DNA of 64,000 nucleotides, taken from positions 4,032,204 to 4,096,203 of the forward strand of contig NZ_VJOK01000001.1 in the NCBI RefSeq assembly GCF_013302895.1, in the 5' to 3' direction. This stretch comes from Streptomyces albus subsp. chlorinus (lineage in GTDB: Bacteria > Actinomycetota > Actinomycetes > Streptomycetales > Streptomycetaceae). Each line of letters opens with the position of its first letter. The first letter of the stretch is position 1. A model generated the notes under the pieces. It was not told the origin of the DNA. It saw only the letters and a list, made by a program, of their open reading frames with translations, and did not search any database. This document shows, one piece after another, positions 2,220-51,438 of the stretch. Position numbers and translations under genes: made by a program.

Positions 2220-3137
2220 GTGACGGGATTCGTCGAAAAACCCGAGCCCGCCCAGGTACCGGGCCTGGTGCATCTGCACACCGGCAAGGTCCGCGACCTC
2301 TACCGGAACGAGGCCGGCGACCTGGTGATAGTCGCCAGCGACCGGATCTCCGCGTTCGACTGGGTCCTGCCGACCGAGATCCCCGACAAGGGCCGCATTC
2401 TCACGCGGCTGTCCCTGTGGTGGTTCGAGCAGCTGGAGGACCTGCTGCCCCACCACGTCCTCGGCACGGACGTCCCCGAGGGCGCGCCCGCCGACTGGGA
2501 GGGCCGCACCACGGTGTGCCGCTCCCTGCGGATGATCCCCGTCGAGTGCGTGGCCCGCGGCTACCTCGCCGGATCGGGCCTGGCCGAGTACGAGCGGTCC
2601 CAGACCGTCTGCGGGCTCGCCCTCCCGCCCGGCCTGGAGGACGGCTCCGAGCTGCCGGGCTCGATCTTCACCCCCGCCACCAAGGCGGAGGTCGGGGAGC
2701 ACGACGAGAACGTCTCCTACGAGGACGTGGCCCGCGAGGTCGGCCCGGAGACCGCCGCCGAACTGCGCCAGGCCACCCTCGCCGCGTACGACCGCGCCCG
2801 GGACATCGCCCGCGAGCGCGGCATCGTCCTGGCCGACACCAAGTTCGAGTTCGGCTGGGACGAGGCGGGCGACGGCACCGAGCCGCGGCTCACCCTCGCC
2901 GACGAGGTGCTCACCCCCGACTCCTCCCGCTTCTGGCCCGCCGACACCTGGCAGCCCGGCCGCGCGCAGCCCTCCTTCGACAAGCAGTACGTGCGCGACT
3001 GGCTCGTCTCCTCCGCCTCCGGCTGGGACCGCGCCTCGGAACAGCCCCCGCCCGCCCTCCCCTCCGACGTCGTCGAGGCCACCCGCGCCCGCTACATCGA
3101 GGCCTACGAACGGCTGACGGGGGTGCCCTGGAGCTAG
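2220..3137 (+). CDS. purC: Phosphoribosylaminoimidazole-succinocarboxamide synthase (SAICAR synthetase)
   Basis: PurC joins carboxyaminoimidazole ribotide and aspartate with ATP to make SAICAR in de novo purine synthesis. The 305-residue product has the usual length. Family signatures are visible: GKVRDLY near residue 23, SDRISAFDWV, then the active-site block RMIPVECVARGYLAGSG, SIFTPATKAEVGEHDEN and later ADTKFEFG. The start is GTG 2220, eight bases after a GGAGG ribosome site. The other purine genes (purS, purQ, purL, purF, purM) follow 6-14 kb downstream, separated by the signalling and transport cassette. The 180 bases after the stop hold no gene. Confidence 0.97.
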   Translation: MTGFVEKPEPAQVPGLVHLHTGKVRDLYRNEAGDLVIVASDRISAFDWVLPTEIPDKGRILTRLSLWWFEQLEDLLPHHVLGTDVPEGAPADWEGRTTVCRSLRMIPVECVARGYLAGSGLAEYERSQTVCGLALPPGLEDGSELPGSIFTPATKAEVGEHDENVSYEDVAREVGPETAAELRQATLAAYDRARDIARERGIVLADTKFEFGWDEAGDGTEPRLTLADEVLTPDSSRFWPADTWQPGRAQPSFDKQYVRDWLVSSASGWDRASEQPPPALPSDVVEATRARYIEAYERLTGVPWS

Positions 3138-3319
3138 GGCCTGCCGGGCGGCCCCGCCGCAACCCTGTGCGGGTTCCGGCGGGGGTGCCCTCCGACGCCC
3201 GACGCGCCCGACATCCAGTGCCCGGCGGGCCGTGGGCTCTCGGGTGTCGGGTGTACTGCGCTTGCGGGGGGCCTTCCGTCCGGGCCCGCCCGGCCCGGCC
3301 CCGGCCGCGACATGAAAAG

Positions 3320-3347
3320 AAGGCCCCGGTCCTTCGACCGGGGCCTT
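3320..3347 (-). terminator. Terminator after tRNA-Gly(GCC) copy 1
   Basis: Perfect 12-bp stem (AAGGCCCCGGTC paired with its complement) around a CTTC-type tetraloop, followed on the minus strand by a short T-rich run. It sits 12 bases past the 3' end of the tRNA. Confidence 0.85.
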
Positions 3348-3359
3348 CCCGCTTCTCGG

Positions 3360-3432
3360 AGCGGACGACGAGGCTCGAACTCGCGACCTCAACCTTGGCA
3401 AGGTTGCGCTCTACCAACTGAGCTACGTCCGC
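3360..3432 (-). tRNA. tRNA-Gly, anticodon GCC (copy 1)
   Basis: The cloverleaf is complete on the minus strand: acceptor GCGGACG/CGTCCGC, D arm AGCTCAGTTGG, anticodon stem CAACC/GGTTG with loop TTGCCAA, and T-arm GTTCGAGCC. The anticodon GCC reads GGC and GGT codons. No CCA is encoded. The 72-base body is identical to the copy at 7965-8037. Confidence 0.97.
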
Positions 3433-3531
3433 GTGCTCCACCGCCGGACCTCTGGGGGCCGCCGTGGTGCGCAGCCCAGTATAGCCGCTCTCCGGCACGG
3501 CCCGGCACGGCTTCCGGGGCGGCCCGGGAGG

Positions 3532-4182
3532 TCAGATCCACCCGCGCTCGCGGGCCATTCGCGCCGCCGCGTGCCGGTTCTCCGCGCCCAGTTTGGCGGC
3601 GGCGGCCGAGAGGTAGTTGCGGACCGTCCCCTGGGTCAGCGAGGCCCTCCTGGCGATCTCCGCCACCGGGGCGCCGTCCGCGGCCAGCTCCAGCAGCTCG
3701 GCCTCGCGGGCGGACAGCGGCGAGTCCCCGGCGCTGATGGCGTCGGCCGCCAGCTCGGGGTCCACATAGCGGCTGCCGCCGTGCACGGTACGGATGATCT
3801 CGGCGAGCTGCTCGGCCGAGGCGGTCTTGGGCACGAAACCGCGGACGCCCGCGGCCAGCGCCCGCTTGAGGTGGCCCGGCCGGCCGTGGCTGGTGACGAT
3901 CATGGAACGGCACTCCGGCACCGCGTCCCGCAGCGCCGCCGCGACCCGCACGCCGTCCGCGCCCGGCATCTGGAGGTCGAGCACGGCCACGTCCGGCCGG
4001 TGCGCACCGGCCATCGCCAGCGCCTCGGGCCCGGAGGCCGCCTCCGCGACGATGGCCAGATCGTCCTCCAGCGCGAGCAGCGCCGCCAGCGCCCCGCGGA
4101 TCAGATGCTCGTCGTCCGCCAGCAGCACCCGGATCGGGACCCTCGGGTCCCCGCCCCCCACCTCGGCGTTCCCGCTCACCAT
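3532..4182 (-). CDS. NarL/LuxR-family response regulator
   Basis: A 216-residue two-component regulator. The receiver domain (about residues 16-130) shows the acidic pair in LLADDEH, the phospho-acceptor Asp in VAVLDLQMPGADG, the conserved Thr in MIVTS and the Lys in FVPKTAS. The C-terminal LuxR-type helix-turn-helix includes LSAREAELLELAADG and LTQGTVRNYLSAAAAKLGAENR. Start ATG 4182 overlaps the stop of the kinase gene by seven bases, so the two are translationally coupled. The likely target is the adjacent ABC exporter, as in DesKR/BceRS-like arrangements (inference). Confidence 0.93.
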   Translation of the reverse strand: MVSGNAEVGGGDPRVPIRVLLADDEHLIRGALAALLALEDDLAIVAEAASGPEALAMAGAHRPDVAVLDLQMPGADGVRVAAALRDAVPECRSMIVTSHGRPGHLKRALAAGVRGFVPKTASAEQLAEIIRTVHGGSRYVDPELAADAISAGDSPLSAREAELLELAADGAPVAEIARRASLTQGTVRNYLSAAAAKLGAENRHAAARMARERGWI

Positions 4183-5886
4183 CGCTTCCCCGGCTCCTCC
4201 CGTTCCCCGGCCGCCCTCGCGCCGGGGAACACCTGGCGGACCAACCCGCCACCCGCACTCCCGACCGCGGCGGAACCCGCCGCGCCCTCCACCGCACCCG
4301 CGGCACCCCAAGCCGCACCCGGGTCCGCGACACCCGGCCCCGCATCCGCATCCGCATGCGGGCCCGCGCCCGTGCCCGTATCCGTAGGCGCGCCCGGCCC
4401 CTCGTCCCTGCCCACGCCCCCTGCCAGGGCCTCCACCGGCTCCCCGGCATCGGCACGTGCGGCATGCGCGGCATGCGCGGCGCCGCCACTGCCGGCCGGG
4501 GCCGTGAGCGCGGTGCCGCCCGCGTCGGCCGGGGCCGTGAGCGGGACCTCGGCGCGCAGCCGGAAGAGCCCTTCCGCCTCGTCGCGGTCCGCCGTGAGGG
4601 TGCCGCCCAGGGCGGCGAGGCGTTCGGCGAGCCCCGTCAGGCCGGAACCGCGCCGGGTGGACTCCGGCCGCAGACCGTCGTTCTCCATCAGCAGGACGGC
4701 CGTACCGGCCGCGCCCAAGGTGAGGCGTATCACACAGCGCCCGGCCTCCGCGTGCCGCAGCACATTGGTGGCGCCCTCCCGGACCACCCAGCCGAGCGCC
4801 GACTGCACGGACCGGTCCCCTCACCGGCTCCGCCGACTCGATGCGGCAGTCCACCCCGGCGGCCCGCAGCACGCCCCGGGCGCCGGCGAGTTCGGTCTCC
4901 AGCCCGGCCTCGCGGTAGCCCCGGACGACCTCGCGCACCTCGGTCTGCGACTCGCGGGCCAGCCGCTGGACCTCCCTCATCTGCGCGAGGGCGGAGTCGG
5001 CGCCCCGCTGGGCGAGCTGGGTGGCCAGCTCGCTCTTGAGCGCGATGACCGACAGGTTGCGGCCCATCACGTCGTGCAGGTCGCGGCTGAAGCGGAGCCG
5101 TTCCTCGGCGACCGCCAGTCGCGCCTGCGCCTCCTTCGCCTCGTCCAGCTCCCGCATGACGGCGATGTACCAGGCCGAGGAGCGCGGTGTGAAGACGCCG
5201 GAGAGGCCCGCGAGGACGAGGACGCACAGGGTGGGCAGCAGCCGCAGCCAGCTCGTCGTCGCCGTGCTGAAGACGGCGGCGATCAGGACGGCGCCGCCGA
5301 ACACCACGGCCATCGCGCGCCGCCTGGGCACCGTCAGCCCGTACACGCCCACCAGGCTCGGCAGACCGGCGAACAGGGCCATCGCGGGCCCGGCGGAGTC
5401 ACCGGCCCAGCCCTTGCCGATCATCAGCGTGACCAGGGCCGTGGCGGCGAGGAAGAACCCCAGCGCGACGGCCATCAGCCGGCGGGGCGGCTCCTCCGCG
5501 CCCAGGTAGCAGTCCAGGGCACGCGGCAGGGCGGTCATGCTCAGCACGCCCACCACCAGTTGCAGTCCGGCCACCACGCAGGCCAGCGTCAGGGGCAGCC
5601 GTGCCTGCGACGTCTCGGCGAGGAACTGCGGGATACCGCTCAGGTAGAAGATCCACGGCGTGCTCAGCACCATCCACCGCGTCGAGACCTCGACCTGCTC
5701 CAGCCGGCTGCGCCGCTGCCACTTGTGCCGCCTCTCCCTGCCCCAGCGGATCACCGGCGACCGCCTCCCGTCCCCGTCTGTCCCCTGCTCGTCCGCCCCG
5801 TGCTCGTGCACATCCCCGCGCCCGTCCGTCCCGTCCCCGCGCCCGTCCGTCCCGTCCCCGTTCCCGTCCGTCCCGTCCCCGTGCAC
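4176..5886 (-). pseudogene. Sensor histidine kinase (HisKA_3 type) with an apparent one-base frameshift
   Basis: The N-terminal part has about six membrane segments (FLSG to LVLAGLSG) and the HisKA_3 phospho-acceptor box RLRFSRDLHDVMGRNLS. The ATPase half (WVVREGATNVLRHAEAG, GLTGLAERLAALGG) is in a different frame. The two halves join smoothly if one base is removed from the CCCC run at 4817-4820 (GGGG on the coding strand), giving PVRDRSVQSALGWVV. As written, the kinase lacks its ATPase domain. It may be a true inactivation or an assembly error. The first roughly 40 residues are encoded by three 21-bp repeats (5818-5880), so the true start may lie downstream of 5886. Confidence 0.8.
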
Positions 5887-34673: not shown

Positions 34674-34786
34674 GTCGGCCGGTATGCCCCTTGTGCGGGG
34701 TGCGTATGCGTGCCGTCCGGGGACTGTGCACAGCGCGTGTACGGCACACGGACGCGGTGCCGGGGGCGCTGGCCGACAATGGGCGA

Positions 34787-35140
34787 GTGCTGGAGATGAC
34801 GCGTGAGGAGTTCGAGGAACTGGTCGCCGAGGCGCTCGACCGCATACCGCCCGAACTGACCAGACTCATGGACAACGTCGCGGTCTTCGTCGAGGACGAG
34901 CCCCCGGCGAGCGATCCCGAGCTGCTCGGGCTGTACGAGGGCACGCCGCTGACCGAGCGCGGCGAGTGGTACGCGGGCGTGCTCCCGGACCGCATCACCG
35001 TCTACCGGGGGCCGACCCTGCGGATGGTGGAGCGGGAGGCCGGGGGAGACCGGGAGGGAGTCGTGGAGGAGGTCGAGATCACCGTCGTGCACGATAACCC
35101 GTCGTACACCTCTCGGGACAGCTACCGCCTGATCGGGTGA
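34787..35140 (+). pseudogene. 5' part of a minimal zinc metallopeptidase gene, interrupted by element 1
   Basis: The first roughly 100 codons encode the conserved MMP-like domain (EMTREEFEELVAEALDRIPP, VAVFVEDEPP, LYEGTPLTERGEWYAG, LPDRITVYRGPTLR), then VEITVVHD. At position 35095 the frame enters foreign DNA and ends 16 codons later. The lost half of the HExxHxxGxxD site is found in frame at 40905-40970. Joining at the GTGCACGA core restores VVHEIAHHFGIDDERLHALGYG. GTG 34787 is preferred over ATG 34796: GACAAT lies six bases upstream, as for a leaderless transcript, and the spacing is the same in the intact copy. Confidence 0.88.
35087..35094 (+). other. attL core of element 1 (GTGCACGA)
   Basis: Eight bases shared exactly with 40905-40912. 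They encode VHE of the metallopeptidase HExxH motif. Upstream is chromosome, downstream is element. A short core of this kind fits a serine integrase. Confidence 0.8.
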
Positions 35141-35157: not shown

Positions 35158-35508
35158 TTAGCCCCAGCCCAGCGCGTGGAGCCGTTCGTCATCTATGCCG
35201 AAGTGGTGCGCCACCTCGTGAACGACCGTCGTGGCCACCTCGTGAACCACTTCGTCCCGGTCCTCGCACATGCGGAGCGTCGGCCCCATGTAGATCGTGA
35301 TCCGGTCCGGCAGAACGCCCGCGTACCACTCGCCCCGCTCGGTGAGGGGCGTCCCCTCGTACAGGCCCAGTAGCTCCGGGTCATCGGCTGGAGGCTCGTC
35401 CTCGACGAACACGGCCACGTTGTCCATGATCCGTGTCAGCTCCGGAGGGATGGTGTCCAGCGCGTCGGACACCAGCTCTTCGAACGTCTCGCGCGTCATC
35501 TCCAGCAC
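35158..35508 (-). CDS. Minimal zinc metallopeptidase (intact, element-borne copy)
   Basis: A 116-residue minimal MMP-like metallopeptidase with the full zinc site VVHEVAHHFGIDDERLHALG (HExxHxxGxxD). It is homologous to the interrupted chromosomal gene but differs at many positions (MTRETFEELVSDALDTIPP against MTREEFEELVAEALDRIPP), so it is a xenologue rather than a fresh duplicate. It sits at the left end of the element, in opposite orientation, and can replace the broken gene. The site corresponding to the att core reads GTTCACGA here. Start GTG 35508 is preceded by GACAAT six bases upstream. The peptidase substrate of this family is unknown. Confidence 0.88.
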   Translation of the reverse strand: MLEMTRETFEELVSDALDTIPPELTRIMDNVAVFVEDEPPADDPELLGLYEGTPLTERGEWYAGVLPDRITIYMGPTLRMCEDRDEVVHEVATTVVHEVAHHFGIDDERLHALGWG

Positions 35509-35606
35509 ACGGCCATTGTCACCCGTCCTGAGAGCACGGACACGGGACACAGCAGCCCCGCCGTCCCTCCACGGGGCAGCGGGCGGCGGGGCGCTTACGC
35601 GGCGTC

Positions 35607-36281
35607 TCAGCCGGTCGGGTTCTGACAGCGCACCAGGAGTGTTCCGGTGCGGTTGCTGCCCTCCGGAGCGTCGATCACCCGGGCCTCTGCCCGGACGAAG
35701 CCGTGGGCGTGGAGCATGTCCACCCACACCTCCGGTTCGTAGTCCCAGCGCTTGACCACCAGCGGGTCCTCATCCTGTGGCCGGTTGATGTACGACGCCT
35801 GAGCGCCGTAGCACCCTTCGACCGGGGGCCGCTGGGAGAAGGCCAGGACGCCGCCGGGCTTCAGGCGGTCCCGCACGGCGGGAAGCAACGTACTCGGCTC
35901 GGTGAACCACACTGCGCCGAAGACGGAGAACACCGCGTCGAACCGTTCGCCGGTGTCGGTCAGGAAGTCCAGTGCGGCCCGCTGGTGGAACTCGATCCCC
36001 TCCAGGTCTCCCCATCGTTCCCGGGCGGCCTGGAGCTGGGCGGGGGACACATCGACGCCGACAGCGCGAGCGCCGAGTGTGGCGACGTGGGCGAGGTTCC
36101 CGCCCTTGCCGCATCCCAGATCCAGCACCGCCGTGCCGGGAGCGACAGTCAGCACTTCGGCCCCCGGCCCGTGATCGGGGAACTGCGTCCAGTTGAACCA
36201 CGTGCGCTCACCAGCCGCGTTCGCCTCCCGTCGGGGCTCCTTGGAGCGTGAGTAGGTGTCCCATGCCTTGACGTCGGTCAT
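35607..36281 (-). CDS. Class I SAM-dependent methyltransferase (element 1 cassette)
   Basis: A 224-residue Rossmann methyltransferase. Motif I is VLDLGCGKGGNLA near residue 50, the acidic ribose-binding Asp is in AVGVDVSPAQLQAAR, and motif IV is FDAVFSVFGAVWF, followed by LKPGGVLAFS. The N-terminal FNWTQFPDHGPGAE and C-terminal RTGTLLV are shared with the protein at 50761-51438 (FDWTQYPGHGPDAD, QMGTLIV), so both belong to one subfamily. It follows the Cys-tailed protein gene after an 82-base gap with a stem-loop. The substrate is unknown; the neighbouring protein is the obvious candidate (inference). Confidence 0.9.
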   Translation of the reverse strand: MTDVKAWDTYSRSKEPRREANAAGERTWFNWTQFPDHGPGAEVLTVAPGTAVLDLGCGKGGNLAHVATLGARAVGVDVSPAQLQAARERWGDLEGIEFHQRAALDFLTDTGERFDAVFSVFGAVWFTEPSTLLPAVRDRLKPGGVLAFSQRPPVEGCYGAQASYINRPQDEDPLVVKRWDYEPEVWVDMLHAHGFVRAEARVIDAPEGSNRTGTLLVRCQNPTG

Positions 36282-36307
36282 GCGCTTCCGTCTCTTGTGT
36301 GCGGGGC

Positions 36308-36345
36308 GGGCGGCCCTCCGGAGCCTTGTGTCCGGACGGCCGCCC
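36308..36345 (-). terminator. Stem-loop between the Cys-tailed gene and the methyltransferase (element 1)
   Basis: A 15-bp stem with one mismatch (GGGCGGCCCTCCGGA / TCCGGACGGCCGCCC) and an eight-base loop, starting 18 bases after the upstream stop. No T-run follows, so partial termination or 3'-end stabilisation is likely. Confidence 0.7.
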
Positions 36346-36363
36346 CTGATCGCCGTTCTGGTG

Positions 36364-36828
36364 TCAGTTGTTGCCGTTCGGGCTGTCGTAGCACCCGGCG
36401 TGGCACTGGTTGCAGTCCGCTACGTCCAGCTCCGGCCACAGCTCCGCGTCCACGACGTACCCGGCCGCCGTGATGGCGTCGATGGTGCGCGCGCGGACAG
36501 CCTTGGCCCCGCCATGGATGGCCGGGTCCAGGTACTCCGGGCGGTGGTGGATGAACCGGCCGAACGTCTGATCGCAGAATTCCGCGTACGCCTCGGTGTG
36601 CAGGATGAAGGCGTGCCAGAACTCATCCACGATCGGAGACGGGCTCAAGGGCTCGGCCGTTTGGGTTCCGGCTGCGAGGAAGGCCAGCATCTGGCCCACG
36701 CCGCGCTCTGCCAGCGAGGTGGACATGTCCGGGAACTTCTTCTGTACGTCCGCCGCCAGCAGTGCCCGGGTTTCGGGGTGCAGAAGCGTGCGGGCGTCGG
36801 TCACCGGGCGCTCTTGCACTACGGTCAC
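36364..36828 (-). CDS. Cys-tailed GRDP-like protein, candidate precursor or carrier (element 1)
   Basis: A 154-residue protein. The centre (residues 67-100: VDEFWHAFILHTEAYAEFC, then FGRFIHHRPEYL) resembles the glycine-rich-domain (GRDP/DUF1399) motif WHxxIL..T..Y..FC. A helix and AAGYVVDAELWPELDVAD follow. The last 16 residues are a Cys-rich tail with C139-x2-C142-x3-C146 ending SPNGNN. The protein at 50169-50630 has the same length and order but a different tail. Start GTG 36828 has GGAGGT eight bases upstream. The downstream partner is a methyltransferase. It could be a peptide precursor with a large leader, or a metal- or cofactor-binding protein. Function unproven. Confidence 0.75.
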   Translation of the reverse strand: MTVVQERPVTDARTLLHPETRALLAADVQKKFPDMSTSLAERGVGQMLAFLAAGTQTAEPLSPSPIVDEFWHAFILHTEAYAEFCDQTFGRFIHHRPEYLDPAIHGGAKAVRARTIDAITAAGYVVDAELWPELDVADCNQCHAGCYDSPNGNN

Positions 36829-39817: not shown

Positions 39818-40603
39818 TCACGCCGCCTTGGTCAGACTGACGCGCTGGATCGCCGCCGGGTGCGGGAACGCGTGCGCGGCCCGCATGGTGGCCTTGATGG
39901 CGACCTGATCGTGGGAGAACCGGGCGTGCTTGGAGGCGTCCAGGGTCACATCCCGCCGCATAACGACCATCACGCGGTCACGCGGGATTCCCCACACGGT
40001 CCCGGCGGTCACGGCGTTGGAGACGTACAGCGGGATGCCCAACACCGTGCGTCGAGTCGGCGTGGTCGGGTCGGAGCCCAGTAGCGGGACGTTGCTGTCC
40101 TTGGTCTGCTTGAGCTGGGCCAGGGTCAGCGCGTCTACCGGGTTCGCGGCGAACGCCGTGATCGTGGCGCCCACGTCCTCCGCCCGGTTGATGGCCTCCT
40201 GGAAGGCGTCCAGGTTGGTGAACTTGGCCCCGGCGTCCACGGTGCCCACGCCGTCCACGCCCTCCAGGCCCGCCGGGTTGGGAGCGGAGAGGGACCCGAA
40301 GAACGAGCGGTCCAGGGCCCCGGCGATGGAGCGGGCAAGGCCGTCGCCTACGAGCTTCTGCGCATCCGGGTCGCTGTCCTCGGCCAGTTCGGACGACACG
40401 ATGGACAGGCCCGCGCACTTGGCCGGGATGACCTCCAGCTCTCCTATCACGGCGTCCGTGGCGGCGATCTCTTCACCCTCCGCCACGAAGGACGCGCCCG
40501 CGTCCGTCTGCACGATGGGGATGTGGACCTTGGTGCGGTCCGTCTTCAGCTTGCTGGCCACTTGGAGCGCGACGCTCTCCCGCTCCACGGGCTGAACGAT
40601 TGA
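39818..40603 (-). pseudogene. HK97-type phage major capsid protein, 5'-truncated
   Basis: About 262 residues of a phage capsid (HK97 gp5 fold). Recognisable parts are KLKTDRTKVHIPIVQTDAGA, FVAEGEEIAATDAVIGELEV, SSELAEDSDPDAQKLVGDGLA, the DRSFFGS loop, VDALTLAQLKQTKDSN, GIPLYVSNAVTAGTVWGI and the C-terminal VAIKATMRAAHAFPHP. The N-terminal delta/arm region is missing and is replaced near 40603-40640 by the end of a recombinase fragment in another frame. No portal, protease or terminase is nearby, so this is a relic of a lost prophage. Confidence 0.85.
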
Positions 40604-40639
40604 GCCAGCCTGCGACGGATCGCAGGGACGCCGGTTCCC

Positions 40640-40862
40640 TGGAGTCCAACCCGTACGGCCGGGAGCCCATCCACCGGCCCTCATCACGTTCGTCCGCCCG
40701 CAGGTCGGTGACGCGGATCGCTGTGTTCTTGGACTCTGTGTGCGCCTGCTGAGCCGCCATTATGAGCTGGAGCTCCCAGCCCGCGTTGTCGGAGTCGATT
40801 CCGTCAGCGATCGAGATGAACCGGCAACCGGTCTCGTAGACGACGCGGATACCCAAAGCAGC
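40640..40862 (-). pseudogene. Serine recombinase (large integrase) internal fragment
   Basis: About 75 residues matching the region after the catalytic core of large serine integrases: FISIADGIDSDNAGWELQL, MAAQQAHTESKNTAIRV and RWMGSRPYGL. The catalytic Ser segment at the N-terminus and the zinc-ribbon and coiled-coil C-terminus are both gone. It lies 43 bases from attR, the usual place for an integrase gene, so it is the probable source of the insertion and is now inactive. Confidence 0.8.
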
Positions 40863-50168: not shown

Positions 50169-50630
50169 ATGACGACAGCAGTCATGGACCGGCCCGTTCT
50201 GCCAGCCGACCAGGCCCGCGACCCCAAAGCCTTCGTGATGCCGGAGGTGTGGGATCGGGAGGTGATCCTCCTCCAGCGTGACCACCCCTTCGATGAGATC
50301 ATGGCGGAGCGGCTGTTCGGGCAGGCAGTGGCCTACCTGATCACCGCGATGGAGAAGTTCGGGCAGGGTCTGGAGATGTGCTGCGGGCGACTGGTGGACA
50401 CCGCCGTGCACGTCTTCATCCTCGACACCCGCAACTACCGCGAGTTCTGCGCCGAGCACTTCCACGGCGGGTTCCTGGAGCACATCCCGGAGATCGAGTT
50501 CAAGTACGACGGCTCGGTCGAGCGCACCGCGAAGGTCCTCCACAAGAACGGGTTCCCCGTGGACTGGCCACTGTGGGAGCACGACTACGGCAAGTGCGGC
50601 CCCTGCGCACCGGGGCAGAGCTGCCATTGA
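50169..50630 (+). CDS. Cys-tailed GRDP-like protein, candidate precursor or carrier (element 2)
   Basis: 153 residues, homologous over its length to the element 1 protein at 36364-36828. Shared marks: VDTAVHVFILDTRNYREFC against VDEFWHAFILHTEAYAEFC, FLEHIPE against FIHHRPE, and NGFPVDWPLWEHDYGKC against AGYVVDAELWPELDVADC. The last 11 residues form the tail CGPCAPGQSCH (C143-x2-C146-x5-C152), unlike the other tail. A CC pair at residues 71-72 is specific to this copy. ATG 50169 has GGGAGG six bases upstream. The methyltransferase follows after a stem-loop. A peptide precursor with a variable core is one reading; a metal-binding or thiol protein is another. Confidence 0.75.
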   Translation: MTTAVMDRPVLPADQARDPKAFVMPEVWDREVILLQRDHPFDEIMAERLFGQAVAYLITAMEKFGQGLEMCCGRLVDTAVHVFILDTRNYREFCAEHFHGGFLEHIPEIEFKYDGSVERTAKVLHKNGFPVDWPLWEHDYGKCGPCAPGQSCH

Positions 50631-50675: not shown

Positions 50676-50760
50676 CTTCGTATGGACTTCGTTCACCCCG
50701 GCATGTCGCACCCCCAGTGTCGCTACGGTGTCCGGCCCCACCAGACGCACGAGGAGGCCC

Positions 50761-51438
50761 ATGGCGCACGCGACGCTGCCGATGTCCCTGCCCGAATACT
50801 GGGACAAGTACAAGCCCTACCGCGGCGAAGGCGAACAGCCCGCCCCGCCAGCGGACCGGTTCGACTGGACGCAGTATCCGGGCCATGGCCCCGACGCGGA
50901 CCTCCTCGGCCCCTGCAAGACCGCTCTCGAACTCGGCCCGGGGGAAGGCACGGAAGCCGCCTATCTGGCCCGACTCGGTGTCCAGGTGACCGCCGTGGAC
51001 TTCTCCGCCGTGCAGGTGGAGCGTGCCCGGCGCTTCTGGGCCGACGAGCCTGGTGTCACCTTCGTGTGCGCGGAGGTGTGCAGCTACCTCGACCAGGCCA
51101 ACACCACCTTTGATGCCGTGTTCTCCAACTGGGGCGCTGTCTGGTTCACCGATCCCGACGAGCTGATGCCCCGCATCCGGCGGCGCCTGGCACCCGGCGG
51201 TGTCCTGGTCTTCTCCCACGCCGAACCCGGTAACGCTTACGGGCCTCAGCAGATGCACGGCAAGTGGCTGGAAGGCCGCGAGCGAGAATTGACGGTGCTG
51301 CGGTGGCAATACCCGCCCCAGGAGTGGGCCGACCGACTCAAGCGCATTGGGTTCGACCGCATTGATGCCCGCATCCACCCAGCTCCCGAGACGGGACAGA
51401 TGGGCACTCTGATCGTTCAGGCGTGGAAAGGCACCTGA
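50761..51438 (+). CDS. Class I SAM-dependent methyltransferase (element 2 cassette)
   Basis: 225 residues, one longer than its homologue in element 1. Motif I is ALELGPGEGTEAAYL, the acidic Asp is in VTAVDFSAVQVERAR, motif IV FDAVFSNWGAVWF, then LAPGGVLVFSHAEPG. The N-terminal PEYWDKYKPYRGEGEQ and FDWTQYPGHGPDAD and the C-terminal MGTLIVQAW define the subfamily. GAGGAGG lies four bases before ATG 50761. The conserved pairing with a Cys-tailed protein suggests that protein, or something bound to it, as substrate (inference). S-, N- or O-methylation cannot be told from sequence. Confidence 0.9.
   Translation: MAHATLPMSLPEYWDKYKPYRGEGEQPAPPADRFDWTQYPGHGPDADLLGPCKTALELGPGEGTEAAYLARLGVQVTAVDFSAVQVERARRFWADEPGVTFVCAEVCSYLDQANTTFDAVFSNWGAVWFTDPDELMPRIRRRLAPGGVLVFSHAEPGNAYGPQQMHGKWLEGRERELTVLRWQYPPQEWADRLKRIGFDRIDARIHPAPETGQMGTLIVQAWKGT

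Follow-up and report, generated by a model that had tools for sequence, protein, structure and literature searches.

A GRDP-like protein with a cysteine tail and its methyltransferase neighbour in Streptomyces albus subsp. chlorinus belong to a large, overlooked bacterial family, possibly of peptide precursors

The window, as we call the whole 64,000-nucleotide stretch of Streptomyces albus subsp. chlorinus DNA that was analysed, carries two copies of a gene pair. In the first copy, on the reverse strand, P1 (36364..36828) encodes a 154-aa protein made of a GRDP-like domain, the putative carrier or leader, and a C-terminal Cys tail of the type called class A below; the assignment is based on the ORF and its ribosome-binding site, an AF2 model and hhalign comparisons. 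P1 starts with GTG, and a GGAGG 7 nt ahead provides a good ribosome-binding site. Its tail, residues 138-154 (DCNQCHAGCYDSPNGNN; 36367..36417, reverse strand), reads C-x2-C-x3-C, then YDSPNGNN, and from its sequence and class A motif is the putative core. MT1 (35607..36281), a class I SAM methyltransferase (Pfam Methyltransf_25, E 4.8e-17), lies 82 nt downstream on the same strand and is considered the partner of P1 because its close homologues adjoin P genes; a simple scan of the gap between the two genes found no terminator-like and no sigma-70-like signal. The second copy, on the forward strand, consists of P2 (50169..50630), a 153-aa homologue of P1 with a class C tail (GKCGPCAPGQSCH; 50589..50627) that is likewise a putative core by sequence and motif, and of its partner MT2 (50761..51438), which was recognised by its ORF and its homology to MT1 and is, like MT1, above cut-off in Pfam class I methyltransferase models; its start was taken as ATG 50761, the longest reading of the ORF beginning at 50728. 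Protein comparison gives 31% identity for P1 and P2 (E 3e-14) and 40% for MT1 and MT2 (E 2e-47). Both pairs, first named in a preliminary description made from the letters of the sequence, are thus real. A third P gene lies elsewhere in the genome (G000:C1:4772878); its product ends in ECSPCDNKVPDSH, and a methyltransferase gene follows. Two regulators recognised by Pfam or NCBIfam models stand close to the window pairs, both on the reverse strand: an XRE regulator with DUF5753 upstream of P1 (37618..38472), and an XRE/TPR regulator, NsdA-like but below cut-off, divergent from P2 (48632..49978).

The AF2 model of P1 (76 rows) has a mean pLDDT of 87.9; ten-residue blocks from 11 to 130 reach at least 90, block 131-140 has 64, and residues 140-154 fall below 50. 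P is therefore a protein that the model predicts, with confidence for its body, to consist of a helical domain and a disordered Cys tail. In an alignment of 80 rows (A2), D68, H95 and P97 never vary, with H72 conserved at 99%; the conservation of D68, H72 and H95 suggests that the body may do more than carry the tail. By sequence, no relative of P1 was found in the PDB (best E 0.36), and structure searches gave a best E of 2.1 with Foldseek and a best Z of 3.7 over 82 residues with VIA-align; the absence of a PDB relative is no demonstration of a new fold.

With P1 as query, 67 of 121 genomes of the same family gave matches at E<=1e-3, at 103 places. Of these, 80 regions were fetched, the window itself supplied its own two copies, three are fragments inside fetched regions, and the 18 left out are mostly the weakest. 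P genes in the fetched regions were located by an iterated profile; of the 82 P ORFs, 11 that are partial and 2 whose ends are doubtful were removed, leaving a tree set of 69 proteins (three of the partial ORFs outside this set, at L051, L090 and L110, each have a methyltransferase alongside). A search across Actinomycetota with profile A3, scoring up to 13 candidates in each genome, found relatives in at least 11 of 296 genomes. All 69 proteins have at least one Cys in their final 40 residues, and 65 have at least two; Cys makes up 6.9% of the last 40 residues vs 1.2% elsewhere.

The tails fall into six classes: A, C-x-Q-C-H-x-x-C-x-D-S-P, a motif present in 20 aligned Streptomycetaceae proteins; B, CSPCDNKVPDSH; C, CGPCHPGNDSH, CSPCRPGENCH and similar, present in 15 proteins; D, AQCDSDCGRPYG; E, SHTPKPGGCGPINPG..C and variants; and F, CNPPACCGDGDGC. 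On the body tree of the 69 proteins the classes taken together change six times, the least possible, vs a mean of 40.6 for shuffled labels; class A alone requires three changes and is not one clade. When the classes are set aside, tail identity goes up and down with body identity. Streptomycetaceae tails are inherited classes, and the idea of a hypervariable tail on a conserved body had to be given up: P1 and P2 belong to different classes, and the classes follow the body tree. The opposite claim, that the tail is better conserved than the body, held for 190 of 190 class A pairs, a class defined by its tail motif, and for only 75 of 105 class C pairs; it was dropped because in the class-free comparison tails diverge with bodies. 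Purifying selection on the tail codons is likewise not supported: nonsynonymous differences, as raw counts without site correction, exceed synonymous ones in class A (519 vs 473) and class C (360 vs 245); the same raw counts are 40 vs 52 in class B and 0 vs 35 in class D.

Homologues of MT1 at E<=1e-40 occupy 48 places in the 121 genomes, and at 43 of them a P gene (in four cases a partial ORF) lies within 500 bp upstream on the same strand; the remaining five lack P, with remnants upstream at L231 and L086 and none seen at L228, L230 and L232. Among weaker methyltransferase places (E 1e-26 to 1e-34), 12 of 16 were fetched, and none of these has a P. Counted from the P side, with partner labels assigned by hand, the methyltransferase is the next gene for 34 of the 69 proteins: 11/21 in class A, 8/8 in B and 15/15 in C, vs 0/6 in D, 0/15 in E, 0/3 in F and 0/1 unclassed. 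Across the 34 pairs, P and methyltransferase distances correlate (Mantel r 0.61, 0/5000 permutations). Ten class C genes stand next to methyltransferases of greater divergence (E 1e-14 to 1e-35 with the methyltransferase profile), and most of these ten enzymes are missing from the MT1 search at E<=1e-25. Close methyltransferases go with P, yet P is often found without a methyltransferase.

Other genes take this position elsewhere. At six class A loci without a methyltransferase (L034, L037, L038, L047, L052, L057) a kinase-like gene stands behind P; H[TV]D-x5-N and [VI]DWA motifs were read in five of the six and the second motif alone in L047, and among the five that were scanned individually, L037 and L057 lie above the Pfam APH cut-off and L034, L038 and L052 do not. 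A gene of the same type lies ~2.7 kb behind P at L106, which has the methyltransferase as well. A different kinase-like gene follows P at four class D loci (Pkinase E 2.7e-6, below cut-off), a different methyltransferase is present at L063 and a GNAT gene at L065, and an ORF of 62-80 aa stands behind P at the class E loci L058, L059, L064, L068 and L069. Among clustered Streptomycetaceae genes of at least 90 aa, composition-filtered, no exporter or protease family occurs by P in more than three loci. The close methyltransferases are nearly dedicated to P, but homologues of P are commonly without one, a finding that the preliminary description had named as counting against it: only 34 of 69 P have a methyltransferase, and for the rest either a kinase-like gene or nothing recognisable as a partner was seen.

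In the same clustering a DUF5753-type XRE family occurs in 16 loci and an XRE-TPR family in 12; the window's two regulator genes were not placed in these families. Two zincin-like metallopeptidase genes in the window, at 34691-35140 (forward) and 35158-35727 (reverse), face each other, the former without the HEVAHHFGI end and apparently truncated; a third zincin gene lies behind the third P-methyltransferase pair of the genome. A role of the zincin as maturation protease was rejected, since apart from these two pairs it turned up at just one locus (L053, ~4 kb from P) among the 80 fetched, and is no general partner. A phage capsid gene near pair 1 (39818-40687; PF05065, E 3.7e-27) is perhaps a prophage remnant. 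The suggestion that such pairs travel on mobile elements agrees with relatives of P on 43 plasmid records and in one Streptomyces phage, Kromp; viral contigs have relatives at 2 loci. In Kromp, gp33 is a class E-like P gene (L128 3944-4462) close to integrase and immunity repressor genes, followed by a 42-residue ORF. On a plasmid of Streptomyces sp. NBC_01220 (L251 1794-4429), a class A-like P gene has a gene for a radical SAM protein on its upstream side.

P1 and P2 have no Pfam or NCBIfam match at E<=1, and so none to PF07173 or TIGR03793 (NHLP), and no PHROG match at E<=0.01. Their connection to GRDP-like proteins runs through more distant relatives, which occur on plasmids of Rhizobium, Agrobacterium, Cupriavidus, Azospirillum, Pseudomonas, Halomonas, Stanieria, E. 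coli and others. The PF07173 cut-off is passed by L121, L122, L124 and L147 (Azospirillum, Halomonas and Stanieria members among these), and L120, L123, L143, L160 and L205 stay below it, the last three just under. An hhalign comparison of 32 Streptomycetaceae P (A4) with 18 GRDP-like proteins (A5) gives prob 99.1 and E 4.6e-19, and the conserved D, H, Y, C, G, H and P columns line up. The earlier GRDP/DUF1399 label stands by way of these intermediates and of hhalign, although P1 and P2 have no direct match.

A comparison of A4 with proteins from E. coli, Rhizobiaceae and R. ruber (A6) gives prob 99.5 and E 2.2e-23; this group shares the D..WH, Y...C and HH.P residues of P and the Cys tail. 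Its E. coli member, on plasmid p0.1229_3 (NZ_CP028323.1 CDS 3094-3792; locus L119 391-3592), agrees in plasmid name, size and gene order with mctA of microcin Mcc1229, and ABC transporter, cupin, DUF4440 and DUF2164 genes lie downstream (NZ_CP028323.1 3094-6319). This mctA candidate has matches in 36 of 5426 E. coli genomes, with 40 of 40 places on plasmids, and MctA is just 25% identical to its Rhizobium homologue. The cupin partner of MctA is JmjC_2, which by its family suggests hydroxylation as a possible tailoring step. According to the Mcc1229 report (PMC8853679), in-frame deletion of mctA, mctB (ABC) or mctC (cupin) abolishes activity and complementation restores it, the assay being toxin induction in a pathogenic tester strain; only the genetic requirement is used for our reading of P. 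The putative chain from MctA to P1 is based on homology of the bodies, and the partner genes differ.

Scanning the genome collection brought up 191 relatives, and the best 80 of the 191 loci were examined; these come from Pseudomonadota, Acidobacteriota, Myxococcota, Bacteroidota, Nitrospirota, Cyanobacteriota, candidate phyla and others, many of them MAGs. In these best 80 of 191, a script found 67 full GRDP genes in 65 loci: 56 of the 67 have at least two Cys behind the GRDP domain, 13 have at least three tandem A-[YFW]-[CS]-x units (some of them also in the Cys count), and four have neither Cys tail nor repeats (L141, L161, L170, L203); 18 genes of the same sample carry the CACR tail class. 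This tail is of the CHxPxxCACRxxxACK type and is found in Pseudomonas, Marinobacter and kin (L149, L153, L155, L160, L162, L165-L169, L178, L179 and others); many such loci have a gene of a conserved ~290-aa family upstream, a family seen in 16 loci. A cassette of GRDP, methyltransferase, TauD oxygenase and UvrA-like ATPase genes crosses phyla. Its gene order goes together with the tail R[SAG]C-x2-Q-[NR]-C-P in eight loci (L132-L138, and L129 with one extra gene) and in L121 of Azospirillum too; the UvrA-like protein could serve self-resistance. In Rhizobiaceae, P with a Cys tail is found with a glycosyltransferase at L113 and L115, the former also with an ABC transporter. Long tandem repeats after the GRDP domain (AYCARMAKAEEP, AFCVREP, AYSGVP, AFSSAA) occur at L173, L205, L189, L195, L154, L163, L192 and L200; six of these eight loci have an upstream gene of one large family (GGDEF/EAL-like by the annotation of one member) and no obvious maturase.

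GRDP genes without a tail can stand beside a separate peptide. At L161 the tail-less gene (4747-5459) overlaps an 88-aa gene ending in GGLPWCSSGGCW, with large ABC transporter genes nearby, and the 88-aa product matches TIGR03793, the curated NHLP RiPP precursor model, at 67.9 bits (cut-off 50.9). A 46-aa peptide ending in AFCGKLCMPNVN lies by the tail-less gene of L203, and the peptide of L193 is nearly identical; further cases of a tail-less GRDP beside a separate Cys peptide are L122/L123 and L249. On Halomonas and P. savastanoi plasmids a GGGHCQGGG-x-W peptide precedes the tail-less gene and a membrane-protein-like gene follows it. No convincing Cys peptide was found next to the tail-less genes of L141 and L170, and none that is clear in A. 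brasilense and Maritalea.

We consider it rather probable that P is a RiPP-like (microcin-type) precursor or carrier, with the tail as its core and the methyltransferase as a tailoring enzyme. The ~130-residue GRDP-like helical domain would be a folded leader or carrier and the last ~15 residues the core; the SAM methyltransferase encoded downstream would recognise the body and methylate the tail with its Cys residues. Once modified, the tail would serve as a small peptide product, either still attached or after cleavage, and the nearby XRE-type regulators would probably control the pair. This proposal builds on what was computed directly, namely the pairing, the homology of the body to MctA, the domain and tail architecture and the tail classes. 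That the tail probably becomes a small peptide product we suggest because MctA, a distant relative, is needed for microcin Mcc1229. The most economical reading gives the GRDP-like domain a role in peptide maturation, either carrying the core in cis or working next to one in trans, and makes the window pairs a branch of the family with a methyltransferase as putative tailoring enzyme. The ribosomal-peptide logic of the preliminary description gains independent support from the folded body and disordered tail of the model, the Cys tails of the family, the MctA homology and the NHLP overlap at L161; the constancy of the partner and the hypervariable tail are the points that fail or weaken. Several findings weigh against the precursor reading: no exporter or protease family recurs in more than three of the clustered Streptomycetaceae loci, P has a methyltransferase in 34 of 69 cases, ten class C methyltransferases are more divergent, the conserved D68, H72 and H95 hint at a further role of the body, some tail-less GRDPs have no convincing Cys peptide as neighbour, and MctA is distant even from its Rhizobium homologue and differs in its partners. 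The class A tail is nearly the same next to a methyltransferase or a kinase-like gene, and such near-constancy is hard to square with an enzyme that is matched to a single core.

It is possible, if more doubtful, that the catalyst is the GRDP-like domain: as a metal-dependent enzyme it would form a new class of RiPP maturase, acting on Cys or neighbouring residues of a core peptide in cis or in trans. D68, H72 and H95 of P1 would then be a metal or catalytic site; the cis core would be the protein's own tail in Streptomyces P, MctA and the AYCAR-repeat proteins, and the trans core the NHLP precursor at L161 and the GGGHCQGGGxW peptides of Halomonas and P. savastanoi. Methyltransferases, kinases, glycosyltransferases and oxygenases would be secondary tailoring enzymes.

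We find it unlikely that P is a metal or redox sensor whose Cys/His tail responds to thiol stress or holds a metal such as zinc or iron, with the GRDP domain as a metal-binding switch and modification of an unrelated small molecule by the methyltransferase as the output. The C-x2-C and C-x2-C-H motifs, the conserved D, H and H of the body and the lack of a recurrent exporter or protease neighbour in Streptomycetaceae would suit such a sensor; the Cys spacing of class D and E tails is quite different, however, the AYCAR, AYSGVP and AFSSAA tandem repeats resemble repeated cores rather than metal sites, and a secreted microcin needs MctA (PMC8853679). To a similarly small degree we credit the view that the methyltransferase or kinase-like protein protects the producer or finishes the released product, the tail being left untouched and the peptide of P made otherwise. 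The class A tail occurs with a methyltransferase, with a kinase-like gene or with neither, and APH-type kinases and small methyltransferases are common as resistance or tailoring enzymes; the co-divergence of methyltransferase and P and the rarity of close methyltransferases on their own argue the other way. Very improbable, finally, is a small defence or toxin-antitoxin-like cassette on mobile DNA with P as effector, the methyltransferase as controller and no peptide product: XRE regulators by a number of copies, the copies on plasmids and phage Kromp and partial PADLOC mad2 matches (MT1 E 1.5e-22, MT2 E 2.9e-21) speak for it, but P1 and P2 have no PADLOC match, the mad2 matches span just 117 and 113 of 492 model positions, i.e. 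the methyltransferase domain, and the disordered, conserved tail would be left unexplained.

The pair of P and methyltransferase belongs to a large, overlooked bacterial family, of which no description was found in the open-licence literature; nor was an enzymatic function or biochemical role of GRDP-like proteins found there, so that no established enzyme activity speaks against the precursor reading. The claim that no described system has this composition is nearly right; a distant relative, Mcc1229, has been described (PMC8853679), with no such family assigned in the part available. Compared with GRDP-like proteins (PF07173; DUF1399 of plant glycine-rich domain proteins), P has the core motif in common and differs in lacking a PF07173 match, and 56 of the 67 bacterial members in the best 80 of 191 loci have at least two Cys behind the domain. 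Proteusin/NHLP and Nif11 precursors have a large domain-like leader followed by a short core; P resembles them in its large body, predicted to be folded, and its short tail, and the L161 GRDP gene overlaps an NHLP gene, while P1 and P2 differ in having no NHLP or other NCBIfam match. Of the features of RiPP precursors, a leader-like folded body with a disordered Cys tail as putative core is predicted, a co-encoded enzyme of tailoring type is present as the putative partner directly downstream, and a co-encoded exporter or protease is not recurrent near Streptomycetaceae P, ABC transporters being found by some gram-negative relatives. MT1 is a class I enzyme like the RiPP methyltransferases and matches two of them, the daptide methyltransferase NF041820 (26.4 bits vs a cut-off of 175) and the cypemycin N-terminal methyltransferase (PDB 7wzg, E 6.6e-6, ranked after many other methyltransferases). 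The likeness to Mcc1229 lies in the homology of MctA to the P body, its Cys/Gly-rich C-terminus, and the place of mctA at the head of an operon that also holds a putative tailoring gene and an exporter gene and lies on a small mobilizable plasmid. The differences are that MctA has ~230 aa and is accompanied by an ABC exporter and a JmjC-type cupin, with no methyltransferase; mctB-type ABC exporters and mctC-type cupins are absent among the scanned neighbours of the window pairs. Secretion and CirA/TonB uptake are reported for Mcc1229 (PMC8853679). Our work joins a gene pair common in Streptomycetaceae, a domain of unknown function that plants have as well, and microcin Mcc1229. If the reading is right, searches with the domain would lead to a large number of peptide pathways, so far unrecognised, across many phyla, and Mcc1229, of which a clone in a K-12 strain already exists, would be a model for the role of the domain.
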